DNA from: Paramecium tetraurelia
Taxonomy: Eukaryota > Ciliophora > Oligohymenophorea > Peniculida > Parameciidae
Direction: 5' to 3'
NCBI RefSeq assembly: GCF_000165425.1
Contig: NW_001799628.1
Location: forward strand, 62,001-126,000
Length of the DNA stretch: 64,000 bases
The position numbers and the translations under genes were made by a program. The notes beneath the pieces are model-generated. The model saw nothing but the letters and a program-made list of their open reading frames with translations. It was not told the DNA's origin and made no database searches. This document shows positions 23,383-44,600 of the stretch, piece after piece (position 1 is the stretch's first letter; each line of letters starts with the position of its first letter).

Positions 23383-24243
23383 TATTATATTAACGATTAG
23401 AACACACAACTAAAAAAATATTAGAATTCAACTCTGTATTAGATATCTATGCTTCTTTTTGTTATCATTCACATGCTGAATTCAAAAGAACACCATCAAC
23501 CAATTAATATTAGCATAAATTAAGTTTTGAGGTAGGAGAGCTTAGATATTGAATAATTGAAATTGAGAAATATAACGAGAAAATTAAGAGAGCCTATTTA
23601 ATAATAGCGAAAAAGTAAACAATTAATTTAGTTTAGCAATTAAATAATAGATCTTTCAGACAAGGTAAATAGTTGATTTAGTAACAATCTATATAATTCA
23701 AATTCGTTATCATCGCTTCTGTTGGAGAACTGACGAATAATTTTGGAGTTATGAAAGTGAGATGTCTAACAAGCTCTTTAATTAAAGACAAAAACATGAT
23801 TTCAAGATTATCAACCTATCTTCAGATATTTAATATGATGATGAATATTATATAGACAACAATCGCATTGGAGATCAATTACAGAATAATTCAACATGAT
23901 TCTTAATCATATCCTAAATGCACATTCAAATAAGAAAATAAATTTTCACTTTTCAAATAAGTAGAATTTAGTTGCTACTAAATTTTTACTTTGGTTTATG
24001 TTGACCTGATCCTATTATATTTATAGTTAACTTATCATATTTTTATCTCAATTATAATTTCTTTAGATAACGGGATTCCTTTTGTATTATTTTGTTTTTG
24101 GAACATTATTGTAATTCACTTGATAATTTCAATTTCTATATAATTATTCAACGTTATTATACTAAAGGGATTATACAATAAATCTTATTTTAGTCGTAAC
24201 ACTTACTAAGTATTAAAATGTATTATACTAAAATTAATATATA
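23383..24243. other. Intergenic region of 860 bp, no firm gene
   Basis: It separates two divergent kinase genes and must hold both promoters. Both strands have open stretches of 50-70 codons, for example a minus-strand frame starting MFLSLIKELVRHL near 23800. Three overlapping frames look equally protein-like and none closes with good introns, so I do not call a gene. Confidence 0.35.
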
Positions 24244-26028
24244 ATGATAAAAGTGGTCTAATCTGCAAGACTTCCTTCATCTCCAGTTCTCCATAGAAAG
24301 AAGCCTACCGAACTTTAAAACCCCTTGGAGAATCTGGTTAGAGTGTAATCACCTTGCGGAAGTACAACAAATAATGCATTTGGAAGATTTCCTACAGTGA
24401 AGACCTTGAATAGTGATAGAGATCCAATTGAGCTTACTATAACGTTGATGTTGGAGAGTTAGAAGTAAAAGAAGTGAATGAAAATAGATTGATTGTACCA
24501 ATTGGAATACATCAAAGCACCACAGACCTTTATAAGAAATTAATAGGGAAAGTTAATTAAGTAAATCCCTCAATTGTGCATTAAATTAAACACTTTCAAA
24601 CACATAGTAGCGTTAAGAATTATAATATTGATTACTATTTATCTATTGAACATCAACCATTAGAAGTATTTATTGAATAGAGACATTTGAAATTGGAACC
24701 TTTTATTTCAAGAAGTGTTAATCGCTAATTGAGTATTAATGATTTCGAGATTCTAAAATGCATAGGAGTTGGGTATTGATTCATATTTATATAAATTAGA
24801 GGTTTTTCAAGAGTATATTTAGTTAGAAAGAAAGATAGCGGATATTTTTATGCTATGAAACTGATAGATAAGAATTTCATTCTGAAATCAAATAAAGAGA
24901 TAATTATTAACAATGAGAGATAGGTGATGGAATAATTGAATTCCCCATATTTGGCAAAATTATTCTACTCTTTTGAAACCAAATATTATTTAGTTTTTGT
25001 CATGGAGTATATTGCTTAAGCTATAATATAGACACTGCGCAGGAGGTGAATTATTTTATCATTTGAGAAAACTAAGAAGACTAAATGAGGAATAAGCAAA
25101 AAAATATTTTGTATAGGTTTGTTTAGCAATAGAAGAATTACATAAATATGGAGTGGTTTATAGAGACATTAAACCCGAAAATATCCTCTTAGATTTAGAT
25201 GGATATATTCGTTTATCTGATTTCGGATTATCTAAACCAAATATGGACAGAGAAGAGACAGCATACTCTTTTTGTGGTTCTCCAGAATACATGTCCCCTG
25301 AGATGCTAATGAGAAATGGCCATAGCTTTATGGTAGACATTTACTGTTTAGGAGCTTTGCTATATGAATTTATTTATGGATCTCCTCCTTTTTACAGCAG
25401 GAACATTGAATAAATTTATAATAGCATATTAAATGATAAAATATCATTTCCTCCTTTTGTTAAAATTGATTCAAATCTTAAAGATTTGATTTCAAAGTTA
25501 TTAATAAAAGATCCATAGATGCGCCTAGGGTCTAAAAATGGCATCAAGGAAATCCTACAACATAAGTGGTTCAAAGGATTTGATATTGAAGCCTTGGTTA
25601 AAAGAAAACTAAATATTAGTTATCGTCCAAAGCCATTAAGTTATAATTTTGATGAAGTTGAATTCGGTAAGGGTGACATTGAATTCTAAAAAAGATTATA
25701 TGAAAATTTGAAGAAGGAAAAAGATGTAAATATAAATTAAACTTAGTCTAAATATTCTCATTATTTTCCAAATTTTGAATACATAAATCAGAAAATGCAA
25801 GATACTAGACAAGCGATATTAAACCTTATGTTGTCATAGAAGCAAGTATAAGGTTAGTAGGGATTGGCAAAACCATAACAAAACACTTAAGTTTCCTTAT
25901 CTCCAGTTTAAATGGTCAAAGGATTATCAAATATTAAAGCATTGACTTTAAGTTCTTTTAAGTAGTTATCATAATAAAAACGATTTAATACTGAAGTTGA
26001 TATGAGTAAGCTAATTAAGAAAATGTGA
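24244..26028 (+). CDS. AGC-family Ser/Thr protein kinase
   Basis: Kinase domain with glycine loop [51 protein letters not shown] (Tyr for His in HRD, usual for AGC kinases), LSDFGLSKP, CGSPEYMSPEM and MRLGSKNGIKEILQHKWF. A Gln/Ser-rich tail of ~120 residues follows and ends MSKLIKKM. Introns fit at 24773-24799 (27 nt, inside the glycine loop) and 25007-25031 (25 nt). A third of 20, 23 or 26 nt is needed in the first 200 bases to close the frame; the best candidate, near 24410-24430, has a weak 3' end, so the N-terminus is uncertain. The ~160-residue region before the kinase (VGELEVKEVNENRLIVPIG) is not recognised. Confidence 0.92.
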
Positions 26029-26167
26029 AAACAGTTTTTATTTATTGTTTTGGAAGCATATATTTTAAGATTATCATTCGAATATTTATGTAGAATATTT
26101 TATATTTATTGTTCAATAAATTCGATAAATACTCTTTTATAAATTAATATTTTAATTATTTAATTGA

Positions 26168-27784
26168 ATGGAATAAATTGAATAATTTTTAGCAAGCTAG
26201 AAATGCCAGAGACATCAAAAACAATTGAGCAAAATATTTTGTGAAAATTCAGAAGAAATAAAATTATAATAGTGCATTCTATGTGTTGATTGTGAAAAAG
26301 AAGTTCCTAATTCGTTAACAATTGGTTTACCTGAGTTTATAAGAGTGTGTAACAAAAATAACTAAAATTTCGTACCTATTGAAGTTTGTTTCAGAAGATT
26401 TGAAAATATTTTTAAATTATTGAGAGATATCTAATAAAAGGTTAGAAGTTAGATAGATGATGTTGAAAAATGTATAGAATAAGAAAAAAATGCCCTATCT
26501 TAAAAGACTATTGAAAATCAAATTAAACAAATCGTAAGGGATGAAAACCCTTAGAGCTAAATCATTAGAAATGAAATTAATAAAATAAATATAAATTTTA
26601 CAACGAAAATTATTTAGAAATTAGACAGTTTAAAGAATTTTGAAGAATAAAAAAAATGCAGAGAAGAAATTGAAGAATTGAAAAGAGAATTTAATTTATA
26701 ATAACAAATTCCACAATAATAATAATAATAATAATCAAAATTGTAATAATAATTGTAATAATAATAACAATAATAACAATAATAACAATTGCAATAATAA
26801 CAAATTCCATAATAAAGATAAGGTTTCATACACTTAGATAATAGTAATTAGTAATCAGAAACATGCTATTCAATTTCATTTAATCATAGTAATTCACTTA
26901 TGATTTCTGGATGTAATAATTTTATTAAATTGTGGGAATTTAAAGCAGGATAATTAAATCTGATCAAACATTTAGAAGGACATCAAGAAATTGTCACTAA
27001 TTTGTTATTCAGTAGCATTTCGAATAATTTTGTTTCTGGTTCAATAGATGGTCATTTGATATGTTGGTCTTATCTTTAGCAAAGCTAAATTAAAAAGTCA
27101 TAAACATACGAATTCCACGAAAAAGGAATAAGCTGCATGATTTTGAATAAGAAAGAAAATTTATTATTTACAAGTGATATGGATAAATAAATCATCATTT
27201 GGGATGCAGATTTGAGTAGCAATTTATTATCTATTCATCAAGTATTAGATAATCATACTAAGTAAGTGAATGGACTCAGTCTAAATGAAACTGAAAATAT
27301 TTTGGTTTCTTGTGGTTTAGATAAATAAATTATAGTATGGTAAAAAGTATCAGATCAATGGATATTTAAAAAAAATGTTAATTAATAAAGTTATGATTTT
27401 GGAACCAGAATTAAATTTATCAATAATGATCGATTTTTATGGGTTTCAGGATCTATGAATGGATAAGATTATTTATTCGATTATTAATTTAATATTTAGA
27501 ATGATTATATCCAGAAAAGGAATAAGTCATTCTTATCAGAAAAAGATTCAAAGGATAGCCTTTTCTTCCCTATTTTCTTTAATAAAGAAAAAAATATTGT
27601 TATAGTAAAACACAAACTTTACATTTATCTTTATAAAAAAGATGATCAAGGGTTATTGAATTCACTGCATTTAAAGAAACTAATTACTAATGACACATAT
27701 GGGGCAATAACAAGTGATGGCTAATTTTTAGTTTCTTGGGATTAATCAAACTAAAGATATGAAGTTTGTAAAATCATAATTTGA
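26168..27784 (+). CDS. Zinc-finger/polyQ/WD40-repeat protein, copy A
   Basis: Intronless frame of 538 residues. The N-terminus has a Cys/His cluster like a B-box or RING remnant (KCQRHQKQLSKIFC, then QQCILCVDCEKEV), then coiled-coil helices, then a glutamine tract at about residues 178-215 encoded mostly by TAA. Five to six WD40 repeats follow, for example SGCNNFIKLWEF, SGSIDGHLICWS, TSDMDKQIIIWDAD and SCGLDKQIIVWQK. This finger-coil-WD40 layout is common in ciliate multigene families and suggests a scaffold role. It is convergent with the coiled-coil gene (stops 170 bp apart). Copy B lies inverted about 10 kb away. Confidence 0.9.
26698..26820 (+). repeat. CAA/TAA microsatellite encoding polyglutamine
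   Basis: A run of TAA, CAA and TAG triplets inside WD40 copy A, all glutamine in this code. The matching tract in copy B is much shorter (near 39385-39430), so the tract has changed length since the duplication. Confidence 0.85.
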
Positions 27785-27953
27785 ATTATTAATATGTTAT
27801 CGAATAAAATTAATTATAATTCTTTCTAAATATTTAGTTGTCATTTATAGATCTTTATTCTTACAAACAACTGCAATTAATTATTGAAAATAAATAAGTT
27901 GAATTTATTCTTGCTCATGATTTAAAGAAATTTGAAATTTACATACATATAAA

Positions 27954-29690
27954 TCAATCCTTATTAAAGTGATGTTTCAATATTATTTATTTTCTTAGTA
28001 ATTCTTCTTCCACATTTATTAAAAAATGATCAAATTATTCCTTTAATTTTTGTTTTTCCATAAAACTGTCTATCTTATTCTTAATCAAACCATTAAAGAA
28101 CTGAAAGGTTTTTTCTAGGTTTTCTTAAAAATATCAAATAAATATTTACAATTGTGGATTTCATCTAGAGTTGATTGTAATTTATTAATCTAAGTTTTAC
28201 TCCAATTTGATATTTCATCTAGTTATTTTTTATATAATGCAGCCTCCTTTTTATAATTCACTTATTAATTTAACTTTTAATTTGAATCTAAAATTCCATT
28301 ATTCATTTGACCACAATTTTAAATGATATTATTTAGTTAGACATTACTATTCTTTATTTCATTAATCTAATTTTAGAGAGATTAATTTATATTAAGTAAA
28401 TTCTCTTTCTCTTTTTCTTTTACTTATAATTCTGTTTACAAATTTTCAATTAAATTATCTTGTTTTTTTTTATAAATCTAAGACTCATCCATTTAAGTCT
28501 AAAACTCTCCTAAAGTTTATATAAATGTCTACTTTTCCTTACAATAGGTCATTTATTTTTTGTCAAGTTCGAAAATTTTTTTTTTCAAATTCTAAATCTC
28601 TTATAGTTATTTAATATCCTTTTATTCTAGTTAAGTTGCGTAATTTTTTTAATTAATGTTAGCTTGTTCATATCGTTATAATTTTTGTTATAATTCATAA
28701 TTTTCTTCTACAATCTACATTAATTATAATCTTTAATCTTGAAATTCTCTTAGTTTATTTTATAATTATTGATTTTCTATTTTTAAATCATAAAATTCGT
28801 GATTCTTGATATTTATTTCGTTATTGATTTCTTCTAGTTTTTGTTATTACACAATCAGTTTATTTTATTGCTATTGATGCAGTTCCTCGATAAATTTTTT
28901 TGTTTTATTTTATGTCTCTTAATATTCTGATTCAGTTAAACCTATTTATATTGATAAATTTTGTATTTCTAACTACATTTATTCTAATTATTATTAAAGA
29001 TTTTCTTTTTCCTTTCTATATATTCCATTTTCATTAGTTAGATTCTTTATATAAGTATAATAATACCAGAATTTTCTCATTTTTTAATTTATTTTCATTC
29101 TCCAATTATGTTAGCTATTCTTTTATTTATATTGATATGGATTGTTCTTATCCTATTCGTTATTTTGCCTCTTCTAGTTAGATTTTCAGCTATTCCTGAT
29201 TTTCCTTATGCATTTCCTCTTTTTCTAGAATCTATTGAGACAATAAATGAGTATATTATTTAAGTTCCTAAATTAACTTTTCTTTTTCCTTAGTATTTTT
29301 CTAATCCTATAATTATTGTTCAAGCTATAGGATATGGGCCCTTTGTTTATCAGCTTTCTTTTGGACTTCTTTTAGGGTAATTTCGTATTGCATATTTAAC
29401 ATTTCTGAACGTTTAAAATTAGTTTCTAATTGAGCCTCTAAGACTAGAATAAAGAATTACTCCAATTTTTGAGCTCCACCTATTTAATCACCTTATCGGA
29501 TTCAAGATTCTTAAACTTTATATTTAGTTGCTCTATTTCCTTTTAGAGTTACTTCTCAACTAAATTAAGTCTCTATTTAATATTACTGAATTATTGTTAC
29601 TTTGTTTTCGATTTGCAGGCTTCCTATTAATTTATTTTGTCTTTGAAATTCTTCCTCTGATCGAATTATTTCTATTTCATCATCGCTCAT
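27954..29690 (-). CDS. Long coiled-coil protein, function unknown
   Basis: Begins MSDDEIEIIRSEEEFQRQNK and is a nearly continuous Gln/Glu/Lys/Asn-rich coiled coil of about 540 residues, for example EITLKEVQKKADKQRAH and KLKEQFDHFLINVEEE. Introns fit near 29595 (28 nt), 29440 (23 nt), 29050 (22 nt, ending AAG) and 28150 (26 nt, ending AAG); each is needed to avoid a TGA. It ends LLRKQIILKHHFNKD. No family is recognised. The last ~20 codons lie within the left arm of the inverted repeat and a decayed copy sits at 38165-38252. Confidence 0.75.
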
Positions 29691-29867
29691 TTCTGTAATA
29701 AATATTTATAAAAGAATTATAAAGGTTAATAAAGAATCAATACTGATGTAAATTTATAATAAAGTATATTTAAGCAACATTTAAAAGATTATTCTATTAA
29801 ACTTAATTCTGAATCAATTAATATAAAATTATTTATACATTTCAAATAAATCATGACCACATCACTG

Positions 29868-32800
29868 TCAGTTGTATTCATCTTACGGAACTAGATTTTC
29901 ATTGTGCCATACTTTAATTTTTAATTTTTGAGATCTATCAAGCCTCCATACCTATATTGCCTCTTATACAGCTTCACTGACTTATTTCCAGAGCACTGCA
30001 GATCTAGCATTAGCTTTATCAGTATTTTTTAACATTAGTATTATCAAATTATATCTAGAAAAATAATTCCAACAACAACAATTGAAAATATTTCTGCTCT
30101 CAATAAGCCAAGGAAACCTCTAATTAATAGAATTTCTACAAGGATTTATAATGCGAGAGTTTTCTTCGATAATCATGAAAATAAAGACTATGAAAAATAG
30201 AATCATAAAAGCATTAATAATAAACTATCCAGAAAACGTTAATTAAACGGCTTCACTTTCAGGATTTGACTTCACAGCAGTTGTAATTACATAAGAGATT
30301 GTGAGCATTATAAAAGAGCCCTAATCAAATTTATTAAGTTTTCTATTATAATATGGTTAAAAGTAATAGGACAATGAGACATAAAACAAAACCAAAAGCA
30401 ACGACGAAAGACCCTAAATAAGATAGATAATATTATACCATATATAAGACCTCTTGAGCCAATAAGCAATAAAGTAAACATATTCCAGCTCTGATATAAA
30501 TTTTAATGAACTCCCAATAAAATTTTATCTCTTTGTTAATCTAAATGTATTCAATATAGATGTATCCCCATAATAGTTGGTATTTATTTTTAGGAAGTTT
30601 ACCAAGATAAAAGTCCTTTGATAATTTTCCTAACAATAAGAGAGGTAAGAATAATAATAAGAAAAATCCTGGATAAATAAACCATTTCAACATAATTGAG
30701 TGATTATTTGAGTAATACTTAAAGGATACATTAGCTTAAATATAAGAATCATCAGAGATGTCTCTTCTAATAATAAGGTTTAAGAATTCTATCAAATATA
30801 CAGGCTAAAAATATAGAAACATATAAATAAGCATTGTTTTAATGTATTTCTACTTCTTTTTTAAAAACTTCTTGAAAATCAATATTTCGATAATAATAAT
30901 CATTGCGACATAACAAATAAGTGTTAGAGTCAAGGACCAAATTAATCTCAGATAAATAATATCTGGTACAATTTCTTCAACTAGCAAGCAATCCAAAGCA
31001 TTATCAAAAGTAAAAGCTGGCATAGCGATTGTATTGATTATATCTTTGCTACTTTGAGATATTACTTATCTCTATCCTTCTATGAGAGATATCAATTAGA
31101 AGAAATTCATAAATATTTTAATTAAAATAGCCGATTTGTTAGAGTGGCCTCTAAAATAGTTGATTGAGAATGAATTCAAAATTTATAAGCGAAAATGGTT
31201 TTTTATTCTGTCTTCATGACCATATATCGTAAGAAAAGTGGTTAATATTATGATGATGCAGGTAATCACTATAACAGATTTGTTATTTGTTCTTTCTGAG
31301 CATCTTTTGCATTCAAACTTAGCAGAATTGTAATAAGATTCTTCCCAATGAATAGCATAGATATCACACTCTTCACAAAGTGCTCCTATCTGTCCAATTT
31401 GACACATGTCATTTCCAACATAAAATCCTCCTTTGCAATTCTCAACCTAATTTATACATTTTTCAATATTGTCAGTTTCATAATTTGGTCTCCAGAATTA
31501 TTCTTAAACCTTAATTCTATTCATATATGTGTAATTCATAGAATAATAATCAATTACTTTGCATACTGGATCCTTATAAATTAAAGAGTATGTTCCAACA
31601 TTGCAAGGAGTACATGTTCCACTTATATTATCATATTTTTCACCTATTTAACATTCAACTGATCTTATTCTAACTTGTAAAGCATATTGAGTATCGAAAC
31701 CAATGCACTAATATGGGTATTAATTATGATATATAGGAATATTCACATGATTACTACTAAAAACCGCATCTAAAGTAATATTATTATAAGGGTCATAATT
31801 AATAATCTGGTCGGAATAGTCAAATCCCTAAGTGCTATTTTAAATGAAACTTCTATTAGTATTTCCTGACAAAGGTTGGAGTATTTCTCCTTAGGTTTTA
31901 TCGTAAAGAGCTGATAAACTGCAATATTAATTGTACTAATATCCCATAAAGTGATTATTTCTATCAAGAAATACAACTACAATAGTTTAATTTTCAAATT
32001 CAGACATTTTTTATCCACTCCTTATAATAATTGGATAAAATATCCAGCTTGTGCGAGAATCTAGATTAGCTTATTTTTGTATCTAATTATTTACTCTAAT
32101 TCCCATTTAAGTAGGATATTGAGCAACATCATTGCCAAATAATTTGGCATAACATTATAGAAAAGACACACTCATCAATTCATAATTATTGATTCCGCTC
32201 TCTACCATGGCAATTGCACCTCCAATACTAGCATTATTCTTATAATAGAAACTGTCCTCAATATTCAATTGTTGTTTAATTTGACTTCCGTTTTTTGGAT
32301 AGGATTCAAAATAGAAGCATCCTCCTCTGCCAGTAACAACTGCTAAAGTACAATAAGTCTCAGATGCATTAACAGTTAACCCATAAAAAGAAATACCACC
32401 TCCATGAACAGCCTTGACATCATAGATATTTAGTAATTTTACAATTACATTTGATAAATATGGTGGATTAGGAATAACATAGGTAAAGCTATAATTATTC
32501 TGAGTTTGATTAATTGTTTCTTCCTTCAAAATTCTTTTTGAAGACTAATTGAAATTAGCATATTCAGCAATTTTATAGGCTGTCAAATTTGAGTTTAAAG
32601 TTACGTTAATCAATGAGTCCATTTAAACCTATTATCTGAAGTACTATTCACTAGAAATCGAGAAGCATCCGTAATAAGATGATTCTGAGTTAGAACATCT
32701 ACAGGAGATCAGTTCAACCAAAGGAATTAGTTTTGAATTTGAGACCCTCATTATTTGTACAAAACCGCCATGACATTCCTTGCAGATTACATTGATGATA

Positions 32801-35800
32801 GCAACATTTTATAATTTTAAAGGTGTAGTCTCCTGAATCAAATCAAATAACATCAAAGCTGGATTGATTCTAAATTCTGAGAATTCTAATCTGATTTAAA
32901 GCAGTATACACAATCCATTATTAGTAATATTAGAACAATTTAAATTAGCTATTGAAATTGATGATATATTTCTGAATTATACAGTATCAGCCTATATTGG
33001 ATTTATTTATGGTTCTAATATTTCAATGTAGGGTCTGAATGATAGTACACCATGTTAAGATTAGATATTATTCAAAATTATAAAATTTGCTTGCCAGATT
33101 GAAATAAATCCATAATAATATAGACCTTCTGATTCACACCTATAGATTTCAATTGAACCATAATCTTATTCAACAGCAGCAATTCTCTTAATAAACAAAA
33201 ACATTTCAATTTATTAGAGAGACCCTAATTACTAAAAGTAAGCCAACGAAGATGTCTAATTCCCCGAGATCTTAACTTATTGAAGTATCATTCTTTACTC
33301 TGTTTAGGTTCTTGAATAAAATACTGTTTTAACGGCCAGACCACTTAAAGCATAGCAATTATTAAGTTCCGAATCTTCAATCATAAATTACTAACGTTTA
33401 TCATAACTCATCAAATAAATTCCACCACCTTCTCCTCTTGTAAAACAATGACTAAATTCTGAACTCTAAATCTTCATATCTAATTAAGATGCCATTGAAT
33501 CAATATATAAACAGCCTCCACTTGATGATACTGCTCCATTCAAGGGAGTATAGGCATATCTAATTGAAACATTTTTTAAAATAACCGTTCCTTCCTTCAA
33601 AGTTCTTAAGAACATTGCACCACCCAATTTAGAAGTCGAATTAGAGAAAATGCAATTACTCATGTTAAGATTGAAAGCAGATATATAAATATGTCCTCCT
33701 TCCGTTATTTCATTAATAGAAGGAACTGAAGATTGTGATAATTAATCAAAGTTACTATTATTCATTTAAATATTTGAAATGATTTAGGTTCCTACTTCTA
33801 AATAGAGGACTGCTCCAAAACCTTAAACAGAGTTTGATTTCCAAGTACTATTTGACAAAAGCAAAGTTCCAACTAAACTTCTCATCAAGAAGGTAGGATT
33901 GCTTGGTCTCAGTGATCCATCTATTTCCATTAAATGATGATTGTTGAAGAAATTCATGAAACTTATCTGCACAACTTACATTTGAGTGGAATCTATCAAT
34001 ATTGCAGATGAAGGAACTGCTAGAGCAGTTGTAACAATCGTACATTAAGTCACTTCTGCCCCATTGATAATGATGGTCTCTTAATAATCAGGCGTCGAAG
34101 TATTATAAACTAGATTACTCCAAGAGGATATTCCTACAAAAGAATTGTCTCTTCCAATCAGATTTATTAATTATATGTTGAATAACTTTACTTCTTTATA
34201 AGGATTGTTAATAAATAGACAATAATTATTTCGAATTTTTAGTCCTTCTTTTTAATTACAATTAATATTGATGAACTTAGTAGTCCAAACTTGCTCTACG
34301 TAAAAGATTGTTAAGTCTGCATTTTGGACACTGTTAAAATCTGAGACCATTAATGTGTTACTCTTCTCAACTCTTATTGATGCACTTGTTGCTGCTTCCA
34401 AGATTGTTTCATCAAACCCTTTAGTGCTAATCTATTTAATAATCAATCCTTTCATTGTAATATTTATGGGTATATCATAATCGTTTTAAATTTCAGTGAT
34501 TAGAATCAAACATGCAGGAGTTAGACAAATTACTTAATCAATTTCTAGATTGGTAAATTGCATCTTTAAACCTGAAAAATTTGGATCATTCAACTTAATG
34601 GTTTTAAGTTAATATTAAGTTTATATCAATCTACCTGAATTATTAAATAAAGTATTATGCAAATATACCGCACTTAATTCAATAGTTGTTATATGGAATA
34701 ATGCAGTAGAATTAACTTTAGAATCTTACATTTAAAAATTATTCACTTTGATCTATTGCATCGTCGAGAAATCAACAATTCCTCTTGAATTATTGTATTC
34801 AGTATTTCTCAGAGTTAAGTTATGAATATTGATGATACCCATAGGTTAATTAAAGGTATTTGTACTAAGAAAAGCACCATTGTTGACGAAGTAACATTTT
34901 ACAAATTGAACTTGTTCTAGCACAATTTTGTTATTCCATAAGGGTTGACTTGAAAAATTAGCTGGTTATATCTCGAAAAGTGCTTGGCTTTCAACAGCAA
35001 TATCAGAAAAAGTTACGTTTTTTAAATTAATTATTAAGTATGGCAATATTACGTTAGAATCGTAAACTAAGCCAAATGGCTTTGCCTGGAATGTAATCTC
35101 TTCACTGAGTAAATAGTTTTGAGATTGAATAACAACATCTTTGAAATTAATTTCATACGTATTCAAGAGCGAGGTAAAGAAAGGCTTTTACTTCTTTAAA
35201 GTAATTGACTTCTCACTATAAGGTGTAGTGTAATCCTTGGATACATAATGATCTTCAGCAAGTGTATTTCCGATTTTTACATTCTCTAGGTAGAACTTCG
35301 ATCCTGTGTTGTTTAGGAATTAAAGTCCAAAAGGTTCTTCAGGCCTGTATTGATCGCTTGAGGTCTTGGGTAGATCAGATGCTTGATATAAATCTATTCC
35401 ATTTAAAGAGACCGATGTAAAATATACAAAATATATTGACTTTTGGATGTACCATTTCAATCTTTCGTTCTTGTATGGAGAAGTGGTTTTGATTTTAAGT
35501 TCTACCTCTTTAGCAGAGAAGATATTTTTTCTAAAATTGGTAGTAAAATAAGTGTCTTTCTTGAACTCGCAATCATAATTAGAGTTATCCTTGTTATATT
35601 AAAATTCCAGTATAATTGTTATTTTTCTAATGGCATTCGTATTCCAATCAATAATATCTAGTTTATTTCCATCAATTAAATAATAATCTTCCAAAACAAT
35701 CTCGGCAGTCTTGGATGTAATATTATTGAATTTGGAGTTAATATTCAATACATTTACAGTTTATAATTATTTACAATCAGCTTTAATTACGATTTCAACA

Positions 35801-38013
35801 GAATCGTTTATACACTATGGACAAGCAGTATCTTGTTTGATGCATCTGCCAGTTATAGTATCCAAAAAAAACTTATCGGCACATTTGAATGATTAAGTTG
35901 AATACTTATCGTAAATCGGTAGAATAGGATCATAATAAGGATTTTCTCGATCCTTTTCTTCTTTAGTTCTTTCTCTACAACCAATAGTATCTTCTGGACA
36001 CATAATGCAATCATAACCATCGCTAGAAGCACTACGTGATTTTTAAGTATCATCAAAATTACACTCATCACAATAGCCCTTTAATCCTACTGCTGAAAAG
36101 ATTTTACAATTATCTCCTCCCATCTCGCATTATCCAAGATCGTCATTTTTAATAGGTCCCCTATTTAAGTCTGGTGGGAAACATTCTTCGCAAATAGGAC
36201 CTATGATTTCATCGTCTTCATCAAATTCGTAATCCCAGTATTAAGGGTAGTGAATAGATTTCAAGGAAATGGTGTAGCAAGTCTTACACTTTCCATTCTA
36301 AGAACATGGTTTACAATTTCCTTCTTCCATATCAACATAGTAGCCATCAATGCATCTTTAACAACGAATAACTGGTTCCTTTCCATCTTTTTGAGTTTTG
36401 ACAAATGACTAGCATAAATAATTATCTTTGCTTGAGAAATCCAAGGTGCATTGCCAAGTATTTTAATTATAATAAAGCATGTATCCAATATTACATTACA
36501 AACACTTTTTACCATCAGGTGGAACTTTTTGATAGGTCAAACAATCCACATTAGAATTATTCGATGAATCAATTTAAGTACATTAAGTCTTATCCTCAGA
36601 CAAGTAAAATTTGTCTTCGCATAATGCACACTTCATCTAAGAGTCACCTATTATAACACTGGTTATAAATACTCATCTTTGCTGGGAATTTCATATTATT
36701 ACTGATAGTTGCCATATCGGTTTGATCAAAATAAGTGCACAATTTACAATTTGCAATTGAACAATCAGCGCATCCAACTCCATCAGGTTAAAATATTTAG
36801 CTATATTTTTAACATTATCGACACTTCAACAAATATAGAAGTTCAAGTGCCTCAATATCTGATGCTGTTGCTTCTGTATTTTCAGGCTCAACAACTTTCT
36901 CTTTATCTCTTGTTGGGCTATAAAATCAAAAATATAGAATACAATTCCAAGTTATTCGTATACTCACATCGTTTGCAATTTGTGCCGCATCTAACACAAG
37001 TTTTTCTATTCAAAGATGGAATAGAAGTACTCTAAGCAGTACTTGTACAGTCCTCGCATCTTTATGCTATCCTAGTCAACTTAAACAAGTCTTCAAAAAA
37101 TAAATTTTCATTTGCTTCAAATCTTTTCGTTAACAACTCAGGTTTATTATTAAAGCTATCCCAAGGTTTTGTATTAAGATTCATTTAATTAAAACCAAAA
37201 TAACAGGTTTCACAACCCGAAAAGCATGCTACACATGTACTAGTGGTTTCTTTTTAATCAATCGCATTTCGAGTGGTTAGCATACTGAATCCTTTATTAC
37301 AAATCAAACATTCTTTTTTAGTTTCTATAACTGTCTTTCCTGAATCAGTTTTGATATTTGTAACTATCAAACAAGACTTACAATTATCTGGACAAGAATC
37401 GCATCCTCCAATTGCATCACTATATTAGTACTCCTCTGCACAACTGATGTACAATTTATTCAAATCATATGAATACTTTTTCTAAACTGGAAAGCATGTT
37501 GAATTTTGAGATTTACAAAAGTGATCACATCCATCACAAGCCTCTGTAATAAACTAAATCATTAACTCATTCAATGTACATTTTAAGATCCACTCTTTAT
37601 TACATAAAATAATTGTTTAAGAGGTCTTTCAATTTTGTGAAATGCAGAATTAACGCTTGTTGATTTCGTTTTATAGTCATAACTGCAAATTCGAGATTTA
37701 TCCCTAACTTACATATCATAAATACCATGTTTGACTATTGTCCAAACAATCTCCACAATAATAATTGTTGTCTTCATTGAATTTTTTATACGGACTATTC
37801 TATTTTCAATCAAAATTACCATTCTACGCAAAAATTTGCTCCTGCCTTAAGATTTAAATCAATATGATCTTCTGGCAATTAAAACAAAAAATATTCCTTT
37901 TCACATCTTTAGCAATTTCCTTTATCTTATGTAATACAATTTGGAACTTTTGGAGCTTCATCACATGTAATTTCATAAAACAAAGTTAATAGAGTTAAAA
38001 AAGTAATATACAT
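29868..38013 (-). CDS. Giant cysteine-rich, beta-helix-like, multi-pass surface protein
   Basis: An 8.1 kb gene, roughly 2,600 residues. The start MYITFLTLLTLFYEITC is a signal peptide. The first ~700 residues are full of C-x2-C motifs of the growth-factor-receptor/furin type (for example CDECNFD and CIMCPEDTIGC). The middle ~1,300 residues are Asn/Ser/Ile-rich repeats of the kind seen in pectin-lyase-like beta-helices (FKDVVIQSQNYLL, NVTFSDIAVES). Near the C-terminus comes C-x-I-G-x-I-G-A-L-C-E-E-C and then several membrane spans at about 29990-31300, including SVIVITCIIIILTTFLTIYG. It ends VPQDEYN. Small introns are present but not all mapped. It is probably a cell-surface protein; the ligand is unknown. 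Confidence 0.8.
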
Positions 38014-38420
38014 TATTTATTTATTAAATATCTATTCGAAATGTCTTATTCTCTTCTTTACAAAATAAGTTTATTGAATAAGTATTACGGAATCAATCAA
38101 ACTATAACTAATCATAAATCACACAATTAATTAGCAAATATATCTAAGCCAAGAGTCTTGCAATAATAAAAATCAAAGAATATTTTGATATTGTGAAACA
38201 AGAATTATTAATAAAATAAATAATATTTATAAATCACTTTAATAAGGATTGATTTATATGTATGTAAATTTCAAATTTCTTTAAATCATGAGCAAGAATA
38301 AATTAAACTTATTATTTTCAATAATTAATTGCAGTTGTTTGTAAGAATAAAGATCTATAAATGACAACTAAATATTTAGAAGGAATTATAATTAATTTTA
38401 TTCGATAACATATTAATAAT
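38014..38420. other. Gap between the giant gene and WD40 copy B
   Basis: About 400 bp. Positions 38190-38420 belong to the right inverted arm and hold the duplicated 3' flank with a remnant of the coiled-coil gene. Positions 38014-38160 should include the promoter of the giant surface-protein gene. No other ORF was found. Confidence 0.55.
38165..38252 (+). pseudogene. Remnant of the coiled-coil gene 3' end
   Basis: The plus strand reads KIKEYFDIVKQELLIKQ... and ends NHFNKD with TGA at 38250-38252. It aligns in frame with the last residues of the coiled-coil gene at 27954-29690 (KLKEQFDHF...VEEELLRKQ, ending HHFNKD). Only the last ~30 codons are present, without the rest of the gene. It is therefore a truncated copy carried over when the WD40 gene was duplicated in inverted orientation. 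Confidence 0.7.
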
Positions 38421-40065
38421 TCAAATTATGATTTTACAAACTTCGTATCTTTAGTTTGATTAATCCCAAGAAACTAAAAATTAGCCATCACTTGTTATTG
38501 CCCCAAATGTGTCATTAGTAATTAGTTTCTTTAAATGCAGTGAATTCAATAACCCTTGATCATCTTTTTTATAAAGATAAATATAAAGTTTGTGTTTTAC
38601 TATAACAATATTTTTTTCTTTATTAAAGAAAATAGGGAAGAAAAGGCTATCCTTTGAATCTTTTTCTTATAAGAGTGACTTATTCCTTTTCTGGATATAA
38701 TCATTCTAAATATTAAATTAATAATCGAATAAATAATCTTATCCATTCATAGATCCTGAAACCCATAAAAATCGATCATTATTGATAAATTTAATTCTGG
38801 TTCCTAAATCATAACTTTATTAATTAACATTTTTTTTAAATATCCATTAATCTGATACTTTTTACCATACTATAATTTATTTATCTAAACCACAAGAAAC
38901 CAAAATATTTTCAGATTCATTTAGACTGAGTCCATTCACTTACTTAGTATGATTATCTAATACTTGATGAATAGATAATAAATTGCTACTCAAATCTGCA
39001 TCCCAAATGATGATATATTTATCCATATCACTTGTAAATAATAAATTTTCTTTCTTATTCAAAATCATGCAGCTTATTCCTTTTTTGTGGGATTTATAAG
39101 TTTATGACTTTTTTATTTAGCTTTGCTAAAGATAAGACCAACATATCAAATGACCATCTATTGAACCAGAAACAAAATTATTTGAAATGCTACTGAATAA
39201 CAAATTAGTGACAACTTCTTGATGTTCTTCTAAATTTTTGATCAGATTTAATTATCCTGCTTTAAATTCCCACAATTTAATAGAATTATCACATCCAGAA
39301 ATCATAAGTGAATTACTATGATTAAATGAAATTGAATAGCATGTTTCTGATTACTAATTACTATTATATAAGTGTATAAAACCTTAACTTTATTATTGCA
39401 ATTCTTATTATTATTATTATGGATTTTGTTATTATAAATCAAAATCTCTTCTCAATTTTTCAATTTCTTATATGCATTTTTTTTATTCTTCCAAATTCTA
39501 TAAACTGTCTAATTTCTAAATAATTTTCGTTGTAAAATTTATATTTATTTTATTAATTTCATTACTAATGATTTAGCTTTAAGGGTTTTCATCCCTTATG
39601 ATTTGTTTAATTTGATTTTCTAAAGTCATTTAATATAAGGCAATTTTTTCTTATTCTATACATTTTTTAACTCCTTATATCTAATTTATAAACTTATATT
39701 AGAGTTCATTCAATAATTACAAAATATTATCAAATCTTCTGAAACAAACTTCAATAGGTACGAAATTTTAGTTATTTCTGTTACACACTCTTATAAACTC
39801 AGGTAAACCAATTGTTAACGAATTAGGAACTTCTTTTTCACAATCAACACATAGAATGCATGATTATAATGTTATTTTTTCTGAATTTTCACAAATTATT
39901 TTGCTCAATTGTTTTTGATGTCTCTGACATTTCTAGCTTGCTAAAAATTATTGAATTTATTCCATTCAATTAAATAATTAAAATATTAATAAATTAAAAG
40001 GAATAAAAGAGTATTTATAAAATTTATTGAATAATAAAACATAAAAATATTCTACATATATAGAA
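38190..40065 (-). repeat. Inverted repeat, right arm
   Basis: Reverse complement of the left arm at 26083-28010. It contains WD40 copy B and its flanks. The two arms enclose about 10.2 kb with the coiled-coil gene and the giant surface-protein gene. Confidence 0.9.
38421..39965 (-). CDS. Zinc-finger/polyQ/WD40-repeat protein, copy B
   Basis: Intronless frame of 514 residues, 24 shorter than copy A mainly because the glutamine tract is reduced. The start MEQIQQFLASQKCQRHQKQL and the stop align codon for codon with copy A, and no internal TGA is present, so the gene appears intact. Differences cluster in the N-terminal half (for example CENSEKITLQSCILC versus CENSEEIKLQQCILC), whereas the WD40 half and 3' flank are almost unchanged. 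Selection or recent gene conversion of the 3' half would explain this. Confidence 0.88.
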
Positions 40066-40458
40066 CTTCTACTTTCACAAAAATTTAGGTGAATTCTTTT
40101 ATATTTTTGTTCCTTCGATTAAGAAGAACTAATTTATCAAAGCATTTTGAATTTCAAAGTGTGAATCGGATGATTATACTAATCTCTATTAATTCCCTTC
40201 TTCACATAGCTTCTTATTAAATAAAAAAAGAATGGGAAAAACAAAATTTTTGAGTTGAACCAGAAATTATAATGACATTGTTCTAAAAGTATTAGTAGGG
40301 ATTGCAAATAGAATCACCTTTTAGGAATAACAATACATCAAACAAACACGTCATTATTAATCAAATATTCTTACTTATTTAAGATTCTATAAATTTTTCA
40401 AGAGGATAAGAAACTAAACTTAAGGATCTTTTTTTTGGCAATTATTATTTGAATATAA
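40066..40458. other. AT-rich intergenic region, no gene seen
   Basis: Nearly 400 bp between the right inverted arm and the 3' end of the TBC-domain gene. It probably holds the promoter of WD40 copy B. I see no credible ORF or RNA gene. Confidence 0.4.
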
Positions 40459-41502
40459 TCATTTCTTTTGCGTAGCAGCAAATAGATCATAGTATTTGCG
40501 AAGATCTTTTTTTGAAAAGATAAAATCTTTCATGGCAATTTTAATGAATTTTTCTGGATCAAAATTATTAAAAAATTTCTAGTCTTTCAGAATGGCGATT
40601 ACTTATTCCATGGATTTTGCCTATAATTATTATTAATTATGTGTTTTACTGTCAAAATTTCTTCCTTTCTTATTTTGAGTATGGCTAAGGATGCTCTGAA
40701 TGTAGTTTTGTGATGTTCATACCAAAATATATCAGTGACTCTTAGAAAGATTTACATCGGGAGAATTGAGCTAAAGAGAGTGATAAACCTAAGAATTGTA
40801 TTGTTATAATTACCATTCGGCTGCATAATAAAAGGGGACAATATTAAACTTGGCAAATTTTGCATGTACATCAGGTAAGAATTGCTTGATTAAAATATCC
40901 AATGCATAAAAATATTTTAATGTATTAGTTGGATTTATATAGGTATCAAGACAACCGTATTTTGTAAGCAAACTATACAAATGCCAATAGACTAATTCAT
41001 CATTCATCAATAATAAAAATGAGCCAGCCAAATAATTCAATCCTTGACAATATCCCATGTCTTAGAAGGTCAAGCTGATTGCTCTTAAAACTGTGAAGAG
41101 AGATTGACTTGTGATAGTGTCCATTTTGATAAGATCATTCGATTAGAATGTCCGCATAACATCCAAGGTGATTTGACTGTCGTGAGGTGAGATTTCTTGA
41201 GATTCAATGAGCTCCTTATAGGTTCTCTTCGAGAATACTATTCAAAGTTTTACCTTTGCTTGTATTTTCATTTGATCTATTTCAGCCAAACAAGGCCAGA
41301 TGAGCATTCTGATACCCTCTGGTATTCCTTTTCTTAAACGAGATTTGAGTTTAGAATCATTATTGGCCATTAATTGAGGAATCTTAGGTATCATTTTTCT
41401 CCACTTTTCAATCCTTGCATTAATCTTGAGCATTTCTTCTTTGCTTGGCTGTTGCGTGTTTTGCTTCGGAAACCCATAATGATCTCTATTCTCTGCAATC
41501 AT
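40459..41502 (-). CDS. TBC-domain Rab GTPase-activating protein
   Basis: A 320-residue protein after removal of three introns (27 nt near 41230, ending AAG; 25 nt near 40790; 29 nt near 40625), which closes the frame exactly. TBC landmarks: RLRKGIPEGIRMLIWPCL, TLDVMRTF (the arginine finger of the IxxDxxR motif), MGYCQGLNYLAG (the glutamine finger), FYYAAEWFITLF and VTDIFWYEH. Both catalytic fingers are present, so it should stimulate GTP hydrolysis by a Rab. The protein is short, essentially the TBC domain with a ~60-residue N-terminal extension and a helical tail. Confidence 0.93.
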
Positions 41503-41671: not shown

Positions 41672-44600
41672 TCAGGATACCACTTATTTAAACTAGCTGT
41701 CCACCTATTTATATTAATGTATTGTATTACCATACACCATTTTAAGAAAATAAGGATTCAGGGATTTCAGATTCATTTGCATCTATGCATCCTACTAACC
41801 ATGCTAACCATTCAGTTTTAAGGGCCTCTGTAGTTCCTACAATTTCAGATTGTTTATCGTTTGGTACTACAAAAGTGACAGCTGGGTCATCTTTATCAGC
41901 CACATAATATTTGATATGAGCATTTGATGATATCAATTTTTCTTAATAATTTTCTTTATCACCAAAATTTTGAACAAAAATTAAATATTTACTAAGCACT
42001 AGAGCATTAATTTCAATGGCCTCAAAACTATATTCTTCATCAGAGGATTTACCAAACTTAGCTCCAGTACATTCGTTATCTAAATATCCAACCAAACAGT
42101 TTGAAGTATCTGTTGGATTAAAGGACAATTGAAGATCCAAATTAATATCTGGATTATACCATTCTAATACTATCCTAACTTATCCAGATTTTAATTTCTT
42201 AGACATTGGTACAATAGTAACTTCCTTATCTGAGAACTCATAGCAATTTTAAGAATAATCTGGGTGAGTTACGATTAAATTGTATTGAGATCCCTTAACT
42301 AGTCGAGTAAATGTAACCTTTCCATTAGAATCAGTCTTAGCAGTTCCATATACTTAAAATGATCCACAACTACCAACTCTCAAATCAACCTTGGCTGCTT
42401 CTAGATTATTCCAATCCATAACATTAACAACATAAACATCAGTTTAATAATAATTAATCTAAAAAATCTAAGAGAAATCTCCTAATTTGCATTCTCCATT
42501 CACAACTTTATAACCCTATTCACATACAGCACATTTATTTTCTTTAGTACAAATAGCACAATTCTAGATTTTAGTAGTGCATATTTTGTATGCTTATTTG
42601 CATAAACCATTATCAAAAGTGGAGAAAGCATCACAATAATTTTAATCGCACTTTTCCTTTTCTTTTGAGCATTTCAAACATTGACTTTAAGAATAAGGCT
42701 TAGAACATCCATTTTCTGGCAAACAGGATTTATCAGCTTACAATTAATATTCTGCTTAGCAACTAATACATTTATTATTCTTATCACAGAACTTACAAAA
42801 TGGAACATTAGTGCATCCAGTTGGTTAGCACTTCTTTCTGGCATCCAAATATTCACCACTTTTACATCCACCTTCAGTCTTTGCAGCTTCTTTGGGTTAT
42901 TCTTTTGCTGGTTCTTTTGGTTACTCTTTCGCTGGTTCTTTGGGTTACTCTTTAGCTGGCTCTTTGGGTTATTCTTTAGCTGGTTCTTTGGAGGTTGTAC
43001 CACTAGTTGTAGTAGTTGTAGTTGATGTAGGCTTGGCTGGTTCTGTAGTTGTGGTGGTTGTTGTAGGTTTTGTAGTAGTAGTTGCGGTTTCAGCTTGATG
43101 TAAATATGACTTTGGTGGGGGTGCTGTTGTTTAAACTTTAGGTATTGTCACATTTGATCTCAATAAAATAGTACCAAAATTAATTTCTTCTTAGAATTAA
43201 ACCACCTAAGATTGAACATAGTCATCATAACCAATGGCAGCCACAGTTATCAATCCAGTTGTTGGTTAAAAGATTTGAGTGCTATAATCAGCCACATCAA
43301 AAGTTGATATCTATAATTTATATTCTCCCTTTGGAGTGGCTACATCACAAATTGGTTTATCTAATCCCTCTTGACTCCAACAAATCTTGGCCTCCTATAT
43401 TGGATATTGAGTGTATATTATATCTTCTTCCTTTTTTATTTCACCTACCACAAACCCACTCACCTTTGATTTCATTTCCTTGAATAATTAAACCTATATT
43501 GATTCACTGAGTCCTAATTTCCCAGTAAATTTACACCCTCTTTCATCATCCTTATCAAATCCTGTCTTACATGTTGTACACTGTTAATCTTTGCATTCCT
43601 AACAATTAGGAATTTCACATTTTGGTTGAGCTGAAGTTGCCTATGATTTTGGATCAGTACTACCCTTATCAGAAGTAGTAGTAGGACTTCCCTTACTTGG
43701 CTCTGTTGGTTTAGCTGCAGTATCTGCAAAATGAGAAAACATTGAATAATGCCATAAACCTTGCTATTCTTTTCTTCAATTGGAATATCGACAACATTTT
43801 GATATAAATTAATTGAAAGGTCTTTTAAGCCCACTTGATAGCAAACTTAAACATCATCCAAATACTACTATACATACTCCAACTTGCCAATTATAACAAA
43901 GAAATCTAACTCATTACCATCATAATTAGGCCATAAGAATTTAGCAGCAGCCAAAGTTTAATATGTCGTTGCTTCCTTCCTCTTAAATTGTTATACTCCT
44001 TTAACCCACAATCCAAATAAGATATCTAAATAATTACATGAGAATTATACTTGTCTCTTTCTTGCCTGTTTCTACTTTATTCAACGGACAATTAGTTGTC
44101 GATTTACATTCACTACTCAATTCAACCCTGTTACCAACCAATTAGGTAATTGATTAGCACATTCTTGTTTGGATCTTTGCGAATTCCTTTGCTTTCACAG
44201 CTTTGGCAGGCTGATCAAAATTAATCTCCTTTTTCAATGGAATAGGTGTATAATTATTGACTAACAGAAGTACTCCAAAAACTATTGTGCCAATGAATAA
44301 TAATAGGAATAATGTTTCTATGTTTCTACCTAATGTTTTATCCGAATCTTGTTCTTCTTGAAAGGTGGAATTCCAAATAAAATCAAAGCAAATAAAAATA
44401 ATGGAGTTGCCAAAGATAGCATTATTAGAATTATCAAATCTTTTGTGTAAATATTACTGACTGTTTTGCAACAATTCAAATTCAAACATCCTAATGGATG
44501 ATCTGCAGGATCCGTTGTTTATTCCTCCCATCTCTAGACTTGAGCATCACGATCACATGTAGTAGAATAAATTGAGCATTCTTTTTATCCATCTGGACAA

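Follow-up and report, generated by a model that had tools for sequence, protein, structure and literature searches.

Two copies of a WD40-repeat gene, A and B, stand in opposite orientations on one contig of Paramecium tetraurelia, and B is a recent copy of A that was made at the DNA level and set, reversed, into another intergenic site. The case is built on the ~1.9 kb inverted arms that carry the genes, a relic of a neighbouring gene present in both arms, the syntenic home of that relic at A, the conserved orientation of the long gene in the spacer, and the low divergence of the two copies. Both lie in the window, by which we mean the whole 64,000-nucleotide stretch analysed (C209:62001-126000; positions given without a contig are those of the window), and the assembly searched comprised 69.07 Mb in 231 contigs. 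The arms, delimited by repeat search, identity plot and flank comparison, the inverted pairs within them and the genes that they carry are as follows.

26083-28014, plus strand: arm A, the source copy together with its flanking sequence at both ends
38192-40061, minus strand: arm B, the derived inverted copy with flanks of the A site
26770-27893 and 38312-39435: inverted pair 1, 1124 nt, 97%
26135-26732 and 39401-39998: inverted pair 2, 598 nt, 92%
27888-28014 and 38192-38318: inverted pair 3, 127 nt, 92%
26082-26140 and 40003-40061: inverted pair 4, outer and weaker, 76%, ungapped
26168-27784, plus strand: gene A, 538 aa, with a Cys/His-containing N-terminus, coiled coil, long polyQ tract and WD40 repeats (ORF translation, Pfam)
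38421-39965, minus strand: gene B, 514 aa, with coiled coil, polyQ tract and WD40 repeats (ORF translation, Pfam)
26396-26701, plus strand: coiled-coil part of A, codons 77-178, judged by eye
26698-26815, plus strand: polyQ tract of A, exceeding that of B by 24 codons, in frame

The earlier note had described inverted arms of this size carrying two WD40 genes that both remain open and differ in the length of their polyQ tract, and each of these points stands: the repeat search returned four colinear inverted pieces, both reading frames are open under translation table 6, and the arms are 92-100% identical over most of their length when plotted in 50-column steps. Identity falls to 88% in two single steps (26641 and 27091) and to 127/150 at 26391-26540. 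The unequal polyQ tracts show up at ~26691-26840. No further repeat pair of at least 80 nt (seed 14) was found in the window. The word "tandem", which had also been applied to the duplication, does not describe it; two other genes and ~10 kb of sequence separate the copies, and the arrangement is that of a dispersed copy. At the DNA level A and B are the only close copies of the whole gene in the assembly, and the remaining matches listed are confined to the polyQ tract and its vicinity (query 492-655). One might suspect that the assembly has written a single locus twice in opposite orientations, yet this is extremely improbable because the longest exact run common to both arms is 129 bp; moreover, the copies differ by 72 substitutions over 514 codons and by the 24-codon indel, and the sequence outside the arms is syntenic on both sides with another contig, C201.

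The open frames of A and B require that TAA and TAG be read as glutamine, as they are at 57 codons in A and 46 in B, and no intron is visible in either gene. Both proteins score far above the cut-off of 27 bits for the WD40 repeat (PF00400; 83.2 bits for A and 86.3 for B), as WD40-repeat proteins do, with three stretches in A and four in B passing an E-value of 0.01; no other Pfam family passes its own cut-off among all 25 rows for A and 25 of the 27 for B. Sequence comparison with the PDB (best 60 of 258 matches) likewise leads to WD40-repeat proteins, among them a dynein assembly factor with WDR repeats, WDR5 and CFAP52. The N-terminus of A contains a C-x2-H ... C-x2-C-x2-C pattern, recognised by eye, which we take to resemble a B-box. 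The layout is in this respect reminiscent of TRIM proteins (B-box, coiled coil, propeller), but the B-box itself is unmatched in A and B (Pfam at 0.01; 25 of 27 families for B). Unlike the repeats, which have many WD40 relatives, the first 177 residues gave just two matches in the genome at 1e-3, A and B themselves.

The WD40 part of A and B has at least 126 matching rows in the genome, and the closest relative beyond the pair, among the matches listed, is 37% identical. We read the longest ORF of each of 13 relatives (L011-L023) by eye, and a Cys/His pattern with an extended stretch upstream of the repeats was clear in three of them (L012, L020 and L023). The family layout, for which 105 of the 126 rows were used and the 21 weakest dropped, shows no excess of inverted pairs across these 105 places: 12 or 13 neighbouring pairs are on the same strand, depending on whether one pair on C99 that is probably a single split gene is counted, versus 9 on opposite strands. 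In six of the 16 other WD40 clusters (L049-L054), three with members on opposite strands and three with members on the same strand, we found no internal DNA match at 1e-5, and the A/B pair stands out among these clusters for its DNA likeness. As a separate observation, the family occupies at least 100 places in the genome, and 31 of the 105 considered lie less than 30 kb from a contig start where ~10% would be expected; the binomial p of 2e-8 is overstated, as clustered members are not independent, and covers contig starts alone, and the distribution suggests enrichment near chromosome ends.

The genes around and between the arms provide a frame of reference for the duplication. The outer anchors and the two spacer genes are listed here.

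24211-26029, plus strand: left anchor, a protein kinase gene, its extent being that of the C201 match; matches on C201, C23 and C226
28085-29402, minus strand: coiled-coil-like spacer gene in two overlapping ORF pieces, outside the duplication (ORF list)
30325-38115, minus strand: long cysteine-rich, surface-like spacer gene; main ORF 30325-36636, 2103 aa
40735-41241, minus strand: right anchor, part of a RabGAP-TBC gene, syntenic on C201

The best matches of the kinase and TBC genes outside the window are on C201, at 86% and 94% protein identity respectively; the long spacer gene aligns to C201 at 71-72% DNA identity, and other longer neighbouring stretches do so at 81-87%. C201 carries the kinase, surface-like and TBC genes in the same order and orientation as the window and, judging from this synteny, is probably the window's sister block from the most recent whole-genome duplication (WGD), with C23 and C226 presumably older paralogons. 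No WD40 row falls on C201, C23, C226 or C26 (0 of the 126 listed matches, and 0 in the fetched stretches). Between its kinase and surface-like genes C201 instead has a tubulin-ligase-like (TTLL), a RING-finger and a CoA-transferase gene. The TTLL gene is kept beside the kinase on C23 and C226, and the RING-finger gene on C23; the C201 arrangement is therefore the older one, and the window block has lost the TTLL, RING-finger and CoA-transferase genes. The CoA-transferase gene is absent from the fetched C23 and C226 stretches, and the grounds for dating it before the WGD are C201 and the relic described below. The region of gene loss corresponds to 25800-30700 in the window versus C201:76270-82200.

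The enclosed genes that had been noted earlier, one coiled-coil and one encoding a surface protein, are both present, and the second is better described as a long cysteine-rich gene: the "surface protein" label remains a reading of its sequence, and the main ORFs of both spacer genes were without a Pfam match at 1e-3. ORF pieces upstream of 30325-36636 were taken as 5' exons of the long gene, joined by putative splicing. This gene evolves fast, with a dN of 0.276 against its C201 counterpart, from a rough, unspliced ORF alignment (30325-36636), compared with 0.019-0.065 for its TBC and kinase neighbours. The coiled-coil-like gene is unmatched on C201; part of it (28088-29098) matches itself alone in the genome at 1e-10, and a neighbouring piece has a weak match on C226 near 203 kb (46% over 69 aa). 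Beyond the right anchor, at 42888-42991, a 24-nt unit is tandemly repeated in 4.3 copies (90% match) within a minus-strand ORF, where it encodes a PAKEQPKE-like repeat.

A relic of the CoA-transferase C-terminal end, ~90-115 bp long and lying toward the 3' end of both arms, reveals the direction of copying.

27871-27984, plus strand: relic at its native site (C201 match, frame reading, synteny)
38239-38307, minus strand: second relic copy, carried with the arm to site B (C201 match, frame reading)

A search of the whole assembly with the 306-bp 3' flank of A gave three matches at E<=1, namely A, B and the syntenic C201 site, the last at E 1.7e-12 and 80% identity, and positions 27899-27984 align to C201:82154-82242, also at 80%. 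The relic frame reads FILAHDLKKFEI in both A and B, with the C201 stop lost, and the end of the C201 gene in that frame reads FELTVADDLKKFDI*. The body of the C201 gene is a CoA_trans domain (PF01144, Pfam) and falls just under the cut-off of TIGR02428 (237.2 versus 243.55 bits). On its own, the 65-aa end has only weak matches (FadX, E 0.005; 3-oxoacid CoA-transferase subunit B, E 0.075), and we identify the relic as a CoA-transferase C-terminus because of its position and because of a counterpart in a second CoA-transferase on C55, whose end reads FELTVADDLKSF (75% over 52 aa, E 1e-23) and directly adjoins its own gene body. At A the relic occupies the syntenic place of the CoA-transferase end in the right orientation; at B it sits in the wrong gap and in the wrong orientation. 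The relic is thus native at A and foreign at B, and B is therefore derived from A.

The mode of copying follows from what travelled. The copied unit comprised ~85 bp upstream of the gene, the gene itself and ~230 bp downstream including the relic, and the copying of flanking DNA on both sides points to a DNA-level copy rather than a retrogene. Were B a reverse-transcribed copy of an A transcript, the usual sign of intron loss would be uninformative, the gene having no visible intron, but the upstream sequence and the neighbour-gene relic in B, together with arm ends that show no poly(A) tail, make such an origin highly improbable. On C201 the position matching the copy B site is taken up by a 975-codon ORF (C201:91173-94097, L040), which begins with 25 codons that align to the end of the TBC region (40455-40529); a 309-aa part of it that was tested had no other match in the genome at 1e-3, and the ORF has no Pfam match. 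The flanks of B have short, weak matches to C201 apart from the TBC end, and a clean empty site for B was not found on that contig. At the 5' edge of arm A there is no clear C201 match beyond the kinase stop.

The earlier note had further proposed that the arms may lead to rearrangement or altered copy number. In principle, inverted repeats this long and this similar are able to recombine, and a functional cassette could be imagined in which they flip the 10 kb spacer or change its copy number during development. The order and orientation of the two outer genes and of the long gene between them are, however, those of C201, so that the spacer shows no net inversion, and a Pfam scan of four neighbouring window proteins returned no recombinase domain. 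The proposal thus finds no support, and an invertible cassette is very unlikely here; the effect of the arms may rather be gene conversion of each other.

The duplication is young in comparison with its surroundings. Across 514 aligned codons there are 15 synonymous and 57 nonsynonymous differences between the copies (dS 0.053, dN 0.047), and with a simple counting method the dS values against C201 are 0.80 for the TBC gene, 1.20 for the surface-like gene and 1.48 for the kinase gene, so that the A/B value is 15- to 28-fold below those of three neighbouring WGD pairs. Divergence is not even along the arms, however. In the 3' flank there are 2 differences in 188 sites at 27785-27972 versus 7 in 42 at 27973-28014, a step reached in 3 of 5000 permutations by a test that covers one cut, chosen by looking, in the 3' flank alone. 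Pooled arm edges (11/98) also exceed interior non-coding and synonymous sites (17/506, p 0.002). The 5' edge by itself, with 4/56 differences and 15 gap columns in a gapped alignment, is not clearly raised, and synonymous differences are flat along the gene (N-terminus 2/44, coil 3/54, WD40 8/181); the neutral divergence accordingly has a step in the 3' flank and no clear one at the 5' edge or within the gene. The 3' step and the raised pooled edges suggest that the duplication is older and that gene conversion has since evened out the interior of the arms, an argument that draws mainly on 42 sites at the 3' edge and against which the 5' edge and the flat synonymous differences count.

A second peculiarity is the coiled coil, which has 30 nonsynonymous and 3 synonymous differences between the copies. 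Its nonsynonymous rate (30/252) is far above that of the WD40 part (15/776, p 1e-9), with synonymous rates that are similar in the two regions (3/54 and 8/181, p 0.72), and it matches that of the arm edges (p 1.0). Compared with the edges, the synonymous rate is lower outside the coil (10/225, p 0.03) and not different within it (3/54, p 0.38). The coil nonsynonymous rate also exceeds both the gene-wide synonymous rate (15/291, p 0.005) and that of the flanks taken together (13/312, p 0.0007); for the coil's first half the nonsynonymous and synonymous counts are 21/127 and 2/29 (p 0.25). The excess of amino-acid change could be due either to an unconverted, weakly constrained tract or to diversifying selection, and the genome holds no outgroup copy by which the changes could be assigned to A or B. 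Purifying selection on the WD40 part (15/776 versus 8/181, p 0.06) is suggestive only.

One may accordingly postulate a scenario that dispenses with conversion, in which a single young duplication from A to B was followed by fast change of the coil through positive selection or lost constraint, and in which the edges differ by chance or through nearness to error-prone junctions. The uniform synonymous difference along the gene, the 5' edge that is not clearly raised and the coil rate in excess of gene-wide synonymous sites and flanks would all be expected in this scenario. It does not readily accommodate the sharp non-coding step in the 3' flank, nor the agreement of the coil rate with the edge rate while synonymous sites outside the coil are lower, which fits older edges and coil left unconverted. 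We give this scenario somewhat less than an even chance, and it bears on the conversion step alone. Considerably more doubtful is an extension of the conversion reading to a two-gene concerted evolution, with germline conversion homogenising the propeller and flanks and with the coil escaping or being selected apart; if true, the same propeller would be carried on two dimerisation domains that diverge from each other.

Taking these results together, we consider one overall account, with gene loss after the WGD, a WD40 gene at A, a later inverted DNA copy to B and conversion between the two, to be very likely. After the recent WGD the window block would have lost several genes, and a WD40-family gene would have ended up between the kinase and the last ~100 bp of the dying CoA-transferase gene, giving copy A. 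Much later a ~1.9 kb segment would have been copied in reverse into the gap between the surface-like and TBC genes, giving copy B, possibly by DNA repair or by replication template switching. Gene conversion between the arms may have followed, and the more divergent 3' edge would then be a remnant of the older state. Expression of B would rely on the ~85 bp that it carries from upstream of A, and both proteins may act as scaffold-like WD40 propellers in which the coiled coil diverges fastest.

Viewed against known systems, A/B is a well-documented and unusually well-polarised but ordinary recent gene duplication of a known kind. According to a study of P. aurelia, recent single-gene duplications are very rare, with a median of 28 per genome (PMC10195154). 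Like the duplicates described there, A and B are a non-WGD pair inside a WGD paralogon and much younger than the WGD, and their gene has no partner on the sister block: both copies are on C209, none is on C201, and the dS of 0.053 compares with 0.80-1.48 for the WGD pairs. The placement in a paralogon follows from C209/C201 synteny, and its assignment to the WGD is probable. Unlike those duplicates as there presented, the pair is inverted and dispersed over ~10 kb, and its direction and mode are readable from a neighbour relic. Gene conversion is reported to be common between WGD pairs in Paramecium (PMC10195154, PMC11334263) and occurs in inverted arms such as Y-chromosome palindromes (PMC3403216). 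A and B resemble these converted duplicates in an interior that looks younger; unlike WGD pairs or large palindromes as treated there, they form a 1.9 kb pair for which the evidence of conversion is modest. Title and abstract searches for inverted duplication, WD40 expansion, conversion and subtelomeric families, mostly in non-subscription literature, returned no published account of the locus.

The source, direction and mode of this duplication can be read since a piece of a dying neighbouring gene travelled along with it. According to a review, almost nothing is known of recombination within Paramecium chromosomes (PMC11334263), and inverted arms of this size are a small test bed for gene conversion in Paramecium.
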